From Desulfobacteraceae bacterium (GTDB lineage: Bacteria; Desulfobacterota; Desulfobacteria; Desulfobacterales; JALSRD01), in assembly GCA_027061725.1 (NCBI GenBank), contig JAMOVG010000212.1, positions 1-40,178 of the forward strand: a stretch of DNA of 40,178 nt, in the 5' to 3' direction. Under the pieces are notes generated by a model. It was given only the letters and a program-made list of their open reading frames with translations. It was not told where the DNA came from and did not search any database. This document shows, piece after piece, positions 33,356-38,891 of this stretch. The position numbers and the translations under genes are program-made. Position 1 is the first letter of the stretch. Each line of letters starts with the position of its first letter.

Positions 33356-33799
33356 TTAGTGAATGGCGATCTGCTTGGGTTTCTGCTCTTCGGGTTTGGG
33401 AACCACGATCTTCAGAACACCATCCTTGTACTCGGCCGCGATCTTCTCGGGATCGATCTCGCCGGGCAGGGTGAAGGAACGTTCAAAGCGGCCGAAGGTT
33501 CTCTCGCGACGGTAGTAGCTGTCCTCCTTGACTTCCTTGTCAGCAGAGCGTTCCCCGCTCAGGGTGAGGACACGATCCTTGACGTCCACTTTGATGTCCT
33601 TCTTGTCGACGCCCGGCATTTCGGCCTTGATTACGATGTTGTCCTTGTCATCGTAAATGTCCACGCGCGGTTCCCAGCTCGACAGACCCCAGTCGCCCTC
33701 GCTCCTGGTGGTCGGATAGAAGAAATCATCGAACATGGCGTTGATACGGTTGCGCAGACTGAACATATCTTTCATGGGATTCCACTTGACGAGTTCCAT
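33356..33799 (-). CDS. Hsp20 / alpha-crystallin small heat-shock protein
   Basis: A 147-residue small heat-shock protein that binds unfolding proteins without ATP. The N-terminal arm MELVKWNPMKDMFSLRNRINAMFDDFF, the alpha-crystallin domain (about 40-130, with EPRVDIYDDKDNIVIKAEMPGVDKKDIKVDVKDRVLTLSGER and the conserved DGVLKIVVPK) and the C-terminal IAI motif are all present. AGGAGG lies before the ATG. The promoter upstream (33869-33897) is embedded in a very A+T-rich block. Typical of heat-inducible genes in this group. Confidence 0.95.
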   Translation of the reverse strand: MELVKWNPMKDMFSLRNRINAMFDDFFYPTTRSEGDWGLSSWEPRVDIYDDKDNIVIKAEMPGVDKKDIKVDVKDRVLTLSGERSADKEVKEDSYYRRERTFGRFERSFTLPGEIDPEKIAAEYKDGVLKIVVPKPEEQKPKQIAIH

Positions 33800-34168: not shown

Positions 34169-34795
34169 TCAGACCGTGTCCCGGACTGAAAAAATGCGCA
34201 GGTCCGCGATGCGGTTTTCCTGGCAGGGGCCGCTGATCTTGACGCTTTCGTGGCTGAACAGCCAGATTTCCGGAATGATCTCGGCGATCAAGCGGCCTTC
34301 GTTGAACAGCCGCACCACCGAGCTTTCCGAGACCACCACGGCCACGGCATGGGTGTCGCGGGTGATGGAAGCCGCGGCCACGTGCCGGCTGCCCAGGCCC
34401 AGGGGCAGTTCAATGCCGTCGGCCGAGGCGTTGATATAGCGCGCCGCAGAGATGACCACACCGTCGCCGCCCACAATGAAAGCGCCGTCGAGCTGGGCCA
34501 GTTCCTTGATGGTCTCGCGCATGTTGGGGTCGGAGATGCGCTTGGCCTCCGGAGGGTGGCCGAACAGGGGGTCCAGGATGAGATTGCGCGAACGCCGCAT
34601 GGTCTCCCGCTCGTCGGATACCACGAAGAGGGTTCCGATCTTGTGGCCCTCACGCCCCTCCCGGGCTATCTCCACGGCCAGTTGGATCGTGTGCTCCAGC
34701 GTGTCGACATCACAGTCGACCTTGGATCCGCAAAGTTGTTTGAGGGTCGGCACCATGGGCTTCTCGGTTCCGGGGGATAGGGTCCGCCTGTGCAT
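34169..34795 (-). CDS. DisA_N (diadenylate cyclase) domain protein
   Basis: A 208-residue protein consisting mainly of a DAC/DisA_N domain, the fold that makes c-di-AMP from two ATP. The DGA motif (D103-A105 in LDGAFIVGGDGVV) and the second motif GSRHVAAASITRDTHAVAVVVSES (R137, H138) are present, but the canonical RHR reads RHV here. No membrane segment and no DNA-binding domain, so it is neither CdaA nor DisA; it resembles the soluble single-domain type. ATG at 34795 has no Shine-Dalgarno; an alternative is ATG at 34756, which keeps the domain intact. Activity is plausible but not certain. Confidence 0.78.
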   Translation of the reverse strand: MHRRTLSPGTEKPMVPTLKQLCGSKVDCDVDTLEHTIQLAVEIAREGREGHKIGTLFVVSDERETMRRSRNLILDPLFGHPPEAKRISDPNMRETIKELAQLDGAFIVGGDGVVISAARYINASADGIELPLGLGSRHVAAASITRDTHAVAVVVSESSVVRLFNEGRLIAEIIPEIWLFSHESVKISGPCQENRIADLRIFSVRDTV

Positions 34796-34912: not shown

Positions 34913-35251
34913 TTAAAGACGTCCCCCCTGAGATTGCAGTACCTGCTCCATGGCGGTGATGAGGTCTTCGGCGCTTTGAAGCCCGACGAAACGCTTCATT
35001 TCGCGGCCGTTCTTGAAGATGATCATGGTCGGGATGCTGGTGATCCCCAGTTTGAGGGCCTGGCGCTGATTCTCATCCACATTGACCTCCACGACGGCGG
35101 CGCGGCCCTTGTATTTGCGTGACAGTTTGGAAATAATCGGGCTCTGAATCCGGCAGGGGGCACACCACGGGGCGTTGAAATCTACCAGTGTCACTCCTTC
35201 TGCGATCAACTGCTCGAAACGAACTCCGTCTACTGCAATTGCCTGTTCCAT
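34913..35251 (-). CDS. Thioredoxin
   Basis: A 112-residue thioredoxin with the active site WCAPC (C30, C33), the preceding VDFNAPW strand, the SIPTMIIFKNGREMKRFVG segment with the cis-proline, and a final amphipathic helix. It reduces disulfides in the cytoplasm. The frame runs further upstream, but the ATG at 35251 matches the family start; the longer form adds 60 non-homologous residues. Downstream of the small conserved protein (35448-35765) on the same strand with a 196-base gap, so it may be in the same sigma-54 transcript or have its own promoter. Confidence 0.92.
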   Translation of the reverse strand: MEQAIAVDGVRFEQLIAEGVTLVDFNAPWCAPCRIQSPIISKLSRKYKGRAAVVEVNVDENQRQALKLGITSIPTMIIFKNGREMKRFVGLQSAEDLITAMEQVLQSQGGRL

Positions 35252-35447: not shown

Positions 35448-35765
35448 TTAGCCCCCGAAGTTACCGGCCCCCAGCCCCCTCATGGCTTCGTCGACGCTCA
35501 CCCGCAGAGTGGCCAAGTGCCTGTCGAACTCCTCTTTCTCGGTGCGGATGTCGTCGATGCCGGTTTCCGGTGTGCAGTTGTCGCGGATCTCCTCGATGCG
35601 CTCATCCATGTCGGAGATCATCATGTGGATATCCTCGATGTTGGGCAGAACCTTCTCCTTGGTTTCATGGGGAAGCGCCTCCATCTTGCGGACAATGTCG
35701 TAGACGATGGCTTTCCAGGCCGTCAGCTCCATCTCCATGGTTTTGCAACAATTTCTGGCTTTCAT
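35448..35765 (-). CDS. Small conserved coiled-coil protein of unknown function
   Basis: A 105-residue, mostly helical protein with two adjacent cysteines near the N-terminus (RNCCKTMEMELTAWKAIVYDIVRKME), then LPNIEDIHMMISDMDERIEEIRDNC and a second helix. Similar small proteins occur in sulfate-reducing deltaproteobacteria, from memory, with no known function. AAGGAG lies seven bases before the ATG at 35765. It is preceded by a -24/-12 promoter (35846-35861) and is divergent from a sigma-54 activator, so it is the probable primary target of that regulator. Confidence 0.75.
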   Translation of the reverse strand: MKARNCCKTMEMELTAWKAIVYDIVRKMEALPHETKEKVLPNIEDIHMMISDMDERIEEIRDNCTPETGIDDIRTEKEEFDRHLATLRVSVDEAMRGLGAGNFGG

Positions 35766-35845
35766 GGCGGTCTCCTTTCCTGGGTGGTTTTTCTTTCCGG
35801 GAATCACCCGGTTTTGTGTCTCTTTTTCCCTTCACCCTTCAACAC

Positions 35846-35861
35846 TACAAATACCGTGCCA
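35846..35861 (-). promoter_or_regulatory. Sigma-54 (-24/-12) promoter of the small conserved protein
   Basis: Minus strand TGGCACG-GTAT-TTGTA matches the consensus TGGCACG-N4-TTGCA with one change (C to T in the -12 element) and exact spacing. The start site would be near 35836, about 70 bases before the ATG. A sigma-54 activator gene lies divergent, which supports the call. Confidence 0.65.
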
Positions 35862-36000
35862 CCCTGGAGTGAAAACGGTCAGTCCACCGCCACTGAAAAA
35901 ATAACCACACATATTCAATGCGTTAAATGGCTCGCCCCATAGCGTTCCTGTTTTGAATAATTAGGTACGTATCCTTTTTCCACACGGCCCGCCCTGAGAA

Positions 36001-36020
36001 TGTAACGTTACCTAACGTTA
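36001..36020. promoter_or_regulatory. Activator boxes upstream of the sigma-54 promoter
   Basis: A perfect palindrome GTAACGTTAC (36002-36011) followed immediately by a second TAACGTTA (36013-36020). They lie about 165-185 bases upstream of the predicted sigma-54 start, the usual distance for an enhancer site. Confidence 0.6.
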
Positions 36021-36146
36021 TTTTTCCGGGCTGATCGCTGCCGTTCGTCACGCGCCAACGCCGGCAGTTCTTTCGGACCTTCTATTTGCCAAGGCATTTT
36101 TCAGGAAAACTAGGGCAACCACCTGAAGGGTTGCCGCATTCCGCTC

Positions 36147-36175
36147 TTGACAGCGCCCCCAACGTTACCTAATGT
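36147..36175 (+). promoter_or_regulatory. Promoter of the sigma-54 activator gene
   Basis: A perfect TTGACA (36147-36152) with TAATGT (36170-36175) at 17 bases. The -10 match is moderate. The -10 lies inside an AACGTTACCTAATGTAAC box, so the regulator could repress itself. Confidence 0.5.
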
Positions 36176-36201
36176 AACAGGTACGGGACCCGTAACGTTA
36201 C
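36161..36201. promoter_or_regulatory. Operator boxes over the activator gene's own promoter
   Basis: AACGTTAC (36161-36168), GTTAC-CTAAT-GTAAC (36164-36178) and a perfect GTAACGTTAC (36192-36201) repeat the motif seen at 36001-36020. They overlap the -10 and the first transcribed bases of the divergent promoter. Confidence 0.6.
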
Positions 36202-36240: not shown

Positions 36241-37659
36241 ATGCCGCCAGAAACACACGACTTGTGGGACAGCCGCTTCCTCAACCAGATCATCCACTTC
36301 ATGGCCGACGGTGTCTTCACTTTGGACACCCGCGGCCGCATTTCCTCCTGGAACGCCGCCATGGAGCGCATCACCGGCTACTCGCCGGCCGAGGCCCTGG
36401 GAAAGACCTGCAACATCCTGGAGTGCAGCCAGTGTTTTGACAAGGAGTGCCCTTCGGGTCTGAAGGCCTGCGGGCTTCTTGAACACGGTGAATCCAAGGA
36501 CTACGAGTGCATGGTGCGCCACAAGGACGGCCACGAGGTACCGGTGATCAAAAACGCCCGGGTGGTGCGGGACGACGAGGGCGCCATCATCGGCATCGTG
36601 GAAACGCTGACGGACCTGACCGAACTGAAAAAAGCCCGCTTGAAGGCCGAGCAGGCCCAGCGCTGCCTGGAGGAACGGCACCGCCTGGGAAACATCATCG
36701 GCAAGAGCCGGGAGATGCAGCAGGTCTTCACCGCCATCCAGGCAGCGGCGTCCAGCAGCGCCACCATCCTGATCCAGGGCGAAAGCGGCACGGGCAAGGA
36801 ACTGGTGGCCGGCGCCATTCACTACAACGGTCCTTTCCGGGACAAGCCGCTGGTCACGGTCAACTGTTCGGCGTTGTCCGAGTCCCTGCTGGAAAGCGAA
36901 CTGTTCGGACACGTCCGGGGCGCCTTCACCGGCGCCATGCGCGACCGTATGGGCCGCTTCGAGGAGGCCGACGGCGGCACCGTTTTTTTGGACGAAATCG
37001 GTGAGATCAGCCCCTACATCCAGGTAAAGCTGCTGCGGGTGCTGCAGGAGCGGGAAATTGAGCGTGTGGGAGAATCGCGCAAGCGCAAGGTCAACATCCG
37101 TGTCATCGCCGCCACCAACCGCGACCTGTTCGGCCTGGTGCAGGAAGGCAAGTTCCGGCAGGATCTCTATTACCGCCTGAAGGTGTTTCCCATCCTGCTG
37201 CCGCCCCTGAGAAACCGGCGCGACGACATTCCGCTGCTGGTCAACCACTTCATCGAAAAGCAGAACCAGAAAACCGGCAAACACATCACCGGCGTGCGCC
37301 ACGCGGCCATGCAGCTCATCCTGGACTACTCCTGGCCGGGCAACGTGCGCGAACTGGAAAATGCCATCGAGCACGCCTTCGTGCTCTGTAACAGCGACCG
37401 CATCGACGTCTTCGACCTGCCCATCGAGATCCGCCAGATGAAATACCATCCGGAAATCGTGACCGTGCCCCCCTTTGCGGCACCGCCCCGGCCGCGGGCC
37501 CGCGCAAAGCTCACCCGCGAGAAGCTTCTCGAGGTGCTCAACGCCTGTAACTGGAACAAGGCCGAGGTGGGAAGGCAGGTGGGCCTGAGCCGCACGGCCA
37601 TCTGGAAGTACATGAAAAAGTGGGATATTCCCCTCAAGCCGCCGGCAAGCAGCACCTAA
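36241..37659 (+). CDS. PAS/AAA+/Fis sigma-54-dependent transcriptional activator
   Basis: A 472-residue enhancer-binding protein. Residues 10-125 are a PAS domain ([33 protein letters not shown]) with an unusual Cys group (C57, C62, C65, C70, C77, C90) that could hold an Fe-S cluster or act as a thiol switch. The AAA+ domain follows with Walker A GESGTGKE (about 180-187), the sigma-54 contact loop GAFTGA (227-232), Walker [11 protein letters not shown] and the arginine fingers. The C-terminus (about 420-465) is a Fis-type helix-turn-helix. No receiver domain, so it senses directly rather than through a kinase. Start ATG follows AAAGG. It likely binds the GTAACGTTAC boxes upstream. Confidence 0.94.
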
Positions 37660-37702: not shown

Positions 37703-38761
37703 TCAATCCTCCCGGCGGCGGCGCACGGCTTCCAGCAGGCCGGCGGTGCCGGTCATCATATTGTCCCCCATGGGCGCGCCCCACAGCACCGCCAGCGAGG
37801 CGCCTTCCAGCATCCGCCGCTTGGGGCCCGTGGCGATGACGGTCTCCAACGCCGAAGGGCCCACGGCGCGGCGCACCCAGGCACCGTGTCCGCCCTCGGC
37901 CAGCAGCTGCTGGTGCGCCAACCGGCCATCAGCCAGGTCGCGCAGCAGCGCTTCCAGCCGCCAGGGGGTGATGTCGTGGGTGTGGTACTCGAAAAAGCCG
38001 GCCAGACGCCCGTTTTCCACCGTGGCCGCCACGGTATGCGAGGTGGCGATATCCAGCACCGCGAAGACTTCACGCCCGCGGGCCTGGCGGTCCAGCCCGG
38101 CGCCCAGAATGGCGGCCATGCCGCTGTCCATGAGATAGAGCTCCCCGGCCGGCAGGGCCGCAGCGCTGCGGGCGATGCACTGCAGGCGGGTCATGGTCTG
38201 CGGCAGGGTCCTGGGGTCGTAGAGCAGCCGGTGCACCATGGGCGACTCGCTGAGCACCTGCCGGAACATCAGGTGCCGGTAGTCCAGGGCCGATACCCCG
38301 GCCGGTGGGCGGCCGTGATCCTGGGCGCACACCGCCACCACGTCGAACGCGAAGGGCACGCCGAACCCCTGCACGATAGTCTCGATGCGGGCGGGATCCA
38401 GATCGGCCAGTTCCAGGTGCGCGAACCCCTTGCGCGACGTGAGCTCCTCGGCTCGGCTGTCTTCGACTACCTCTATGCCCATGGCCTGCACCTTCTGCGG
38501 GTCGCGGTGCACCGTGGCGGACGCCGAGCGGCTCATAATCACGGCAAAACGGCCGGCCCGCTCCCGCAGCGCCTGGGTCAGGGCGCCGCCGCCCATTTCG
38601 CCGCCGGTGACCAGCAGGTCTCCCCGCCCCTGTCGCACGCGGCCGGCCAGCATCCGCACGGGCGAGGCCACCACCGCCTTGTAGACCACGTCCGTCTCCT
38701 CGTCCAGGTAGAGCACATCCATGGTGCCGGCCCCGATATCGATCATCAGGTATCTGCTCAT
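37703..38761 (-). CDS. DUF1786 family ASKHA-like protein
   Basis: A 352-residue DUF1786 protein, a family of unknown function found in strict anaerobes and annotated at times as related to pyruvate-formate-lyase activation. The start MSRYLMIDIGAGTMDVLYLDEE has the phosphate-1-like motif of the sugar kinase/actin fold, DLLVTGGEMGGGALTQAL and LDIATSHTVAATVENGRLAGFFEYHTHDITPWRLEALL look like the second phosphate and adenosine parts, and Cys/His residues are dispersed (GFGVPFAFDVVAVCAQDHG). GGGAGAG precedes the ATG at 38761; a longer frame to 38830 is not used. Divergent from lgt. Function unknown. Confidence 0.75.
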   Translation of the reverse strand: MSRYLMIDIGAGTMDVLYLDEETDVVYKAVVASPVRMLAGRVRQGRGDLLVTGGEMGGGALTQALRERAGRFAVIMSRSASATVHRDPQKVQAMGIEVVEDSRAEELTSRKGFAHLELADLDPARIETIVQGFGVPFAFDVVAVCAQDHGRPPAGVSALDYRHLMFRQVLSESPMVHRLLYDPRTLPQTMTRLQCIARSAAALPAGELYLMDSGMAAILGAGLDRQARGREVFAVLDIATSHTVAATVENGRLAGFFEYHTHDITPWRLEALLRDLADGRLAHQQLLAEGGHGAWVRRAVGPSALETVIATGPKRRMLEGASLAVLWGAPMGDNMMTGTAGLLEAVRRRRED

Positions 38762-38891
38762 GTGTTCTCTCCCGTAGCGCCCCTTCCCCGCGGCCGACGG
38801 GATTTTCGGCCTGCGGGCGTGAGGCGGCACTTCCTACAGGGCTGAAAAACCCTCTTTCAAGCCCTTCGCAAATCGGCTATACAATCTGGCC

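Follow-up and report, generated by a model that had tools for sequence, protein, structure and literature searches.

The window analysed here is a 40,178-nucleotide stretch of a Desulfobacteraceae genome, in which a divergent gap of 475 bp separates the gene of a small protein from that of a sigma-54 activator (EBP). The features of the gap and of its flanking genes are collected in Table 1. The first-pass annotation had assigned to the activator a Fis-type DNA-binding domain, and domain searches agreed with it: next to the PAS domain, P0001 carries an AAA+ domain of the NtrC/NifA class (PF00158, 235.6 bits) and a C-terminal HTH of the Fis type (HTH_8, scoring 24.1 bits where the cut-off is 22), and its GAFTGA loop is intact. 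GAFTGA, GSFTGA or GAYTGA is found in 86 of 91 orthologues, the other five falling outside the search pattern. A gene for a DUF1786 protein (putative pyruvate formate-lyase activating enzyme; 37703-38830, minus strand) is convergent with the EBP gene. On the other side of the gap, the predicted structure of the small protein is a three-helix bundle (mean pLDDT 86), for which a fold search returned only generic helix bundles with E above 0.2 and no solved-structure relative. Its residues C7 and C64 are invariant among the homologues compared, and 110 of 292 genomes from this order encode a homologue. The thioredoxin-like gene follows after about 196 bp. Directly downstream of it lies a DisA_N/DAC-type diadenylate cyclase gene (34169-34795, minus strand) and further downstream, on the same strand, an Hsp20 small heat-shock gene (33356-33799).

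Table 1. Genes, promoters and boxes at the divergent gap (positions in the window).
Feature	Position	Strand	Basis and remarks
Thioredoxin-like gene (WCAPC)	34913..35251	-	Pfam Thioredoxin; probable second gene of the target operon
Small-protein gene, predicted target	35448..35765	-	105-aa ORF; predicted three-helix bundle; no Pfam family
Sigma-54 -24/-12 promoter TGGCACGGTATTTGTA	35846..35861	-	Fires toward the small-protein gene; sequence read directly
Enhancer box GTAACGTTAC, first of distal pair	36002..36011		One of only three in the genome; same pair in same-genus relative
Enhancer box CTAACGTTAT, second of distal pair	36012..36021		Spacing 10 bp; helical phase as in orthologues
Probable sigma-70-type promoter of activator gene, TTGACA-17-TAATGT	36147..36175	+	Sequence; offsets of boxes in orthologues
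Box CCAACGTTAC in spacer of activator's promoter	36159..36168		+12 from TTGACA; matches order-wide peak +12/13
Box GTAACGTTAC near activator's start site	36192..36201		+45 from TTGACA; one of three in the genome; matches order-wide peak +43 to +46
EBP gene (P0001)	36241..37659	+	Cys-rich PAS, sigma-54 AAA+ with GAFTGA, Fis-type HTH; Pfam and translation

A near-consensus -24/-12 promoter directed toward the small protein had been proposed, and it is present on the minus strand (35861-35846) as TGGCACGGTATTTGTA, with one mismatch to TGGCACGN4TTGCW. The mismatch lies in the -12 element, where GT replaces GC (consensus TGGCAC-N5-TTGC, with GG and GC 10 bp apart), and we class the element as a sigma-54 promoter. 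The ATG of the small gene, at 35765, is about 80 bp past it, and transcription would start near 35836. Counted from that start, the boxes GTAACGTTAC and CTAACGTTAT are located about 171 and 181 bp upstream, in keeping with the tandem palindromes that had been placed 165-185 bases upstream. This distal pair stands as described; the second pair, CCAACGTTAC at 36159 and GTAACGTTAC 33 bp from it at 36192, had been overlooked although it falls within the same interval. Thus four AACGTT palindromes (36002, 36012, 36159 and 36192) occur in the 475-bp gap against 0.05 expected, and only two more in the rest of the 40-kb window. Between the promoter and the distal boxes there is another palindrome-like sequence, TAGGTACGTATCC (35960-35972), which is outside the box class.

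The second pair overlaps what is probably the promoter of the activator itself. Its -10 hexamer, TAATGT, is weak in the window (three mismatches), and the assignment draws mainly on the conservation, in orthologues, of the distance between boxes and TTGACA. Among orthologue regions the offsets, counted from the T of TTGACA, cluster at +12/13, +32 to +35 and +43 to +46, and the pair in the window (+12, +45) matches them. Boxes overlap or abut the activator's sigma-70-type promoter in 62 of the 70 orthologue regions that have both a box and a recognisable promoter of this type, and no other arrangement is as conserved across the order. The position of the second pair at +12 and +45 points to this being the activator's promoter and to negative autoregulation, both probably.

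Conservation was studied in 292 sampled genomes, 86 of which encode EBP orthologues (at least 59% identity); 80 orthologue loci were fetched with organism titles, mostly from Desulfobacterales MAGs and isolates, and the carriers include the cultivable Desulfatibacillum alkenivorans and Desulfospira joergensenii. With the pattern GTRRCGYYAC and at most one mismatch, a box was found in 132 of 160 distinct orthologue upstream regions (shuffled sequences: mean 8.5, maximum 13), the remaining 28 having none at this threshold. The footprinting of the gap suggested earlier therefore came out in favour of the boxes, both across orthologues and in the nearest, same-genus relative, where GTAACGTTACCTTAACGTTTC stands in the equivalent gap. 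No box was found upstream of paralogous EBPs (0/20), which rules out a general trait of PAS-EBP genes. Spacings between boxes were 10-12, 20-22 or 31-33 bp in 66 of 77 cases, and thus the boxes lie on one helix face. A strong divergent sigma-54 element accompanies 86 of the 160 orthologue regions (1.8 in shuffles), with a median distance from box to start of 168 bp (65 strong sites). Since such an element is also found beside 11 of the 20 paralogues, it is the box and not the promoter that marks this EBP family. In most close homologues of the small gene a sigma-54 element lies 86-167 bp 5' of the start, often with a box 125-190 bp further upstream; element and box also occur at small-gene copies with no EBP orthologue in the fetched stretch.

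Pattern scanning of the whole genome (4.07 Mb, 410 contigs) showed that the boxes are not scattered, as had been asked of a motif scan. The exact GTAACGTTAC 10-mer occurs three times, twice in the gap and once at position 461 of contig C229 before a UspA-family gene, and paired AACGTTA motifs are confined to the gap, C229 and position 24544 of contig C323. The C229 boxes lie 5' of the UspA-family gene with the sigma-54 promoter TGGCACGTTTGGTGCA between, and those of C323 precede a small gene for a rubredoxin-like zinc ribbon, with the sigma-54 promoter TGGCACATCTTTTGAT between, so every paired-motif site in the genome has a sigma-54 promoter at enhancer distance. Because the same box-plus-promoter module also precedes these two genes, the description of the circuit as self-contained was wrong. 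The other paired site of the same-genus relative is likewise 5' of its Usp orthologue, where a weaker sigma-54-like element, TGGCACCGCCCGTGCT, lies about 350 bp before the start codon. Chance origin of the boxes is ruled out by their enrichment in the gap, their rarity in the genome and their conservation in orthologues.

The suggestion that the small protein, perhaps with thioredoxin, is the target was supported. For thioredoxin the support comes from relatives, in several of which its gene adjoins the small gene; in the window the two are separated by the gap given above and their co-transcription is putative. In one relative (L041) a single operon runs from the small protein through thioredoxin to Usp, joining two targets that are separate in the window genome. 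At the second box site, the UspA gene has a divergent neighbour that encodes an NtrC-type response regulator (L004, 637-1968). As a binder of the boxes this regulator is not favoured, because Usp is found in the small-protein operon beside the EBP in relatives and because, in the same-genus relative, the receiver-domain gene at this position beside Usp is a different one.

Two classes of box, AACGTT and GGCGCY, were distinguished among orthologues, and they follow residue 452 in the recognition helix of the EBP. Where both residue and box were readable, Thr452 goes with AACGTT in 69 of 70 cases and Ala or Ser452 with GGCGCY in 20 of 20. Of all columns of the protein, 452 carries the most information (0.70 of 0.78 bits). 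In a tree built without the HTH, residue 452 changes twice and the box changes along with it both times; two independent changes are too few for the covariation to reach significance. In our own alignment (SPSTIYRK vs SRTAIWKY), the position corresponds to Ser423 of LuxO, a residue whose replacement by alanine abolished DNA binding, whereas T424A was still active (PMC11407668). Among the lines of evidence that the divergent EBP would itself read the boxes, we regard this covariation, seen in sequence, as the strongest. Several genomes, G052, G227 and G263 among them, have EBP paralogues whose regions differ in box class.

Conservation, genome-wide rarity and protein-DNA covariation together lend support to promoter, enhancer, activator and target each. 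In the mechanism that we propose, the PAS-type EBP would bind paired 10-bp palindromes, GTAACGTTAC, on one helix face; from 36002-36021, some 170-180 bp upstream, it would loop to sigma-54 RNA polymerase at 35861-35846, and this contact would switch on the small protein and probably thioredoxin too. On the second pair, over its own TTGACA promoter, it would most likely repress itself, as PspF does. The EBP would also act at the UspA and rubredoxin-like genes elsewhere in the genome, which makes at least two likely targets beyond the gap, and its cysteine-rich PAS domain would read a presumed thiol/sulfur redox stress. That the EBP binds the boxes and activates the small gene appears very probable, and we have good, if slightly lower, confidence in the explanation as a whole, namely an EBP-box-sigma-54 regulon with autoregulation. 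Repression of the activator gene through the second pair, argued by analogy with PspF, is moderately probable, and the two pairs likely have distinct roles, activation of the small gene and self-repression. Since the boxes reappear in the order at large and at two further sites of this genome, the circuit would not stand alone but form the hub of a small regulon.

Most orthologue boxes overlap or adjoin the sigma-70-type promoter of the activator, a place open to any repressor, and they could thus be operators of a different regulator, such as a repressor of the activator gene, with the EBP using other sites. We judge this unlikely, however, since the boxes go with this EBP subfamily and not with its paralogues, their class tracks the recognition-helix residue of the EBP, and remote genes, too, have them at enhancer distance from their sigma-54 promoters. 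Slightly less probable still is that the boxes serve autoregulation of the EBP only, another EBP driving the nearby sigma-54 promoter. The divergent sigma-54 promoters beside box-less paralogous EBPs speak for such an arrangement, but in the window a separate pair, the distal one, lies near the sigma-54 promoter, and box pairs precede sigma-54 promoters of genes that are not beside this EBP. An EBP acting on both pairs remains our preferred explanation.

Concerning the signal, we looked at the strong predicted targets, defined as a sigma-54 element plus a box near an EBP orthologue. Thioredoxin-like proteins are the commonest (23 of 55), the others including SCO4226-like proteins, TusA, flavodoxin, OsmC, SBF-type permeases, a RACo-type ferredoxin protein, Usp, the small protein and rhodanese-bearing pyridine nucleotide-disulfide reductases (CoA-disulfide-reductase-like). 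From this order-wide set we infer a thiol/sulfur-redox stress regulon, and thiol/sulfur redox stress is tentatively put forward as the signal. The five PAS cysteines (57, 65, 70, 77 and 90), nearly invariant in orthologues, could be the sensor; their pattern is mostly common to paralogues too and so does not by itself point to such a signal. It is possible, if somewhat doubtful, that the circuit is right and responds instead to metal, arsenic or general stress, given that the targets include SBF-type permeases, Usp and SCO4226-like proteins annotated as nickel-responsive; the prevalence of thioredoxins, together with TusA and the rhodanese-bearing reductases, argues against it. Across the Desulfobacterales, PAS-type EBPs may form parallel thiol/sulfur-redox regulons, each self-repressing from in-phase box pairs and separated by one recognition-helix residue (Thr for GTAACGTTAC, Ala or Ser for GTGGCGCYAC), a proposal that we consider evenly balanced.

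The layout of the circuit is of a known kind, resembling those of PspF and FisR. PspF of Escherichia coli binds two upstream sites to activate a sigma-54 promoter, and through the same enhancer it lowers its own expression (PMC3709507). The PspF/pspA system shares with the present one an EBP, two upstream sites and, as proposed here, self-lowering, with activator sites overlapping the activator's own promoter. PspF differs in that it has no PAS domain and is held by PspA, and in the window there are separate box pairs, of which one lies close to the target and the other over the promoter of the activator itself. FisR of Cupriavidus and Acinetobacter is a sigma-54 activator divergent from its target operon, as is the case here, and responds to sulfide or reactive sulfur (PMC7315123). 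FisR targets are SQR/PDO sulfide-oxidation genes, whereas those found here include thioredoxin and TusA, and the activator here, whose signal is putative, has a PAS domain; as the target families differ, we do not class the EBP as FisR. In Desulfovibrio vulgaris, PAS-type EBPs of the one-component kind are co-located with the sigma-54 promoters that they regulate and mostly control 1-4 operons (Kazakov et al., 2015; PMC4641369), a PAS-type EBP beside a sigma-54 promoter being what we also observe. The main text of that paper, as distinct from its figure logos, names neither the box motif nor thioredoxin, and literature searches gave nothing relevant on the exact 10-mer or on a Desulfobacter regulon of this kind. 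In the literature searched we found no earlier description of the motif, of the regulon or of the one-residue specificity switch. A gap without previous annotation has thus led to the prediction of a regulon that spans the order and has a defined motif, geometry and set of targets. The proposed one-residue switch in a Fis-type HTH is directly testable by a Thr452/Ala swap against the two box types, and the setting is that of sulfate-reducing bacteria, where little is known about the regulation of thiol and sulfur stress.
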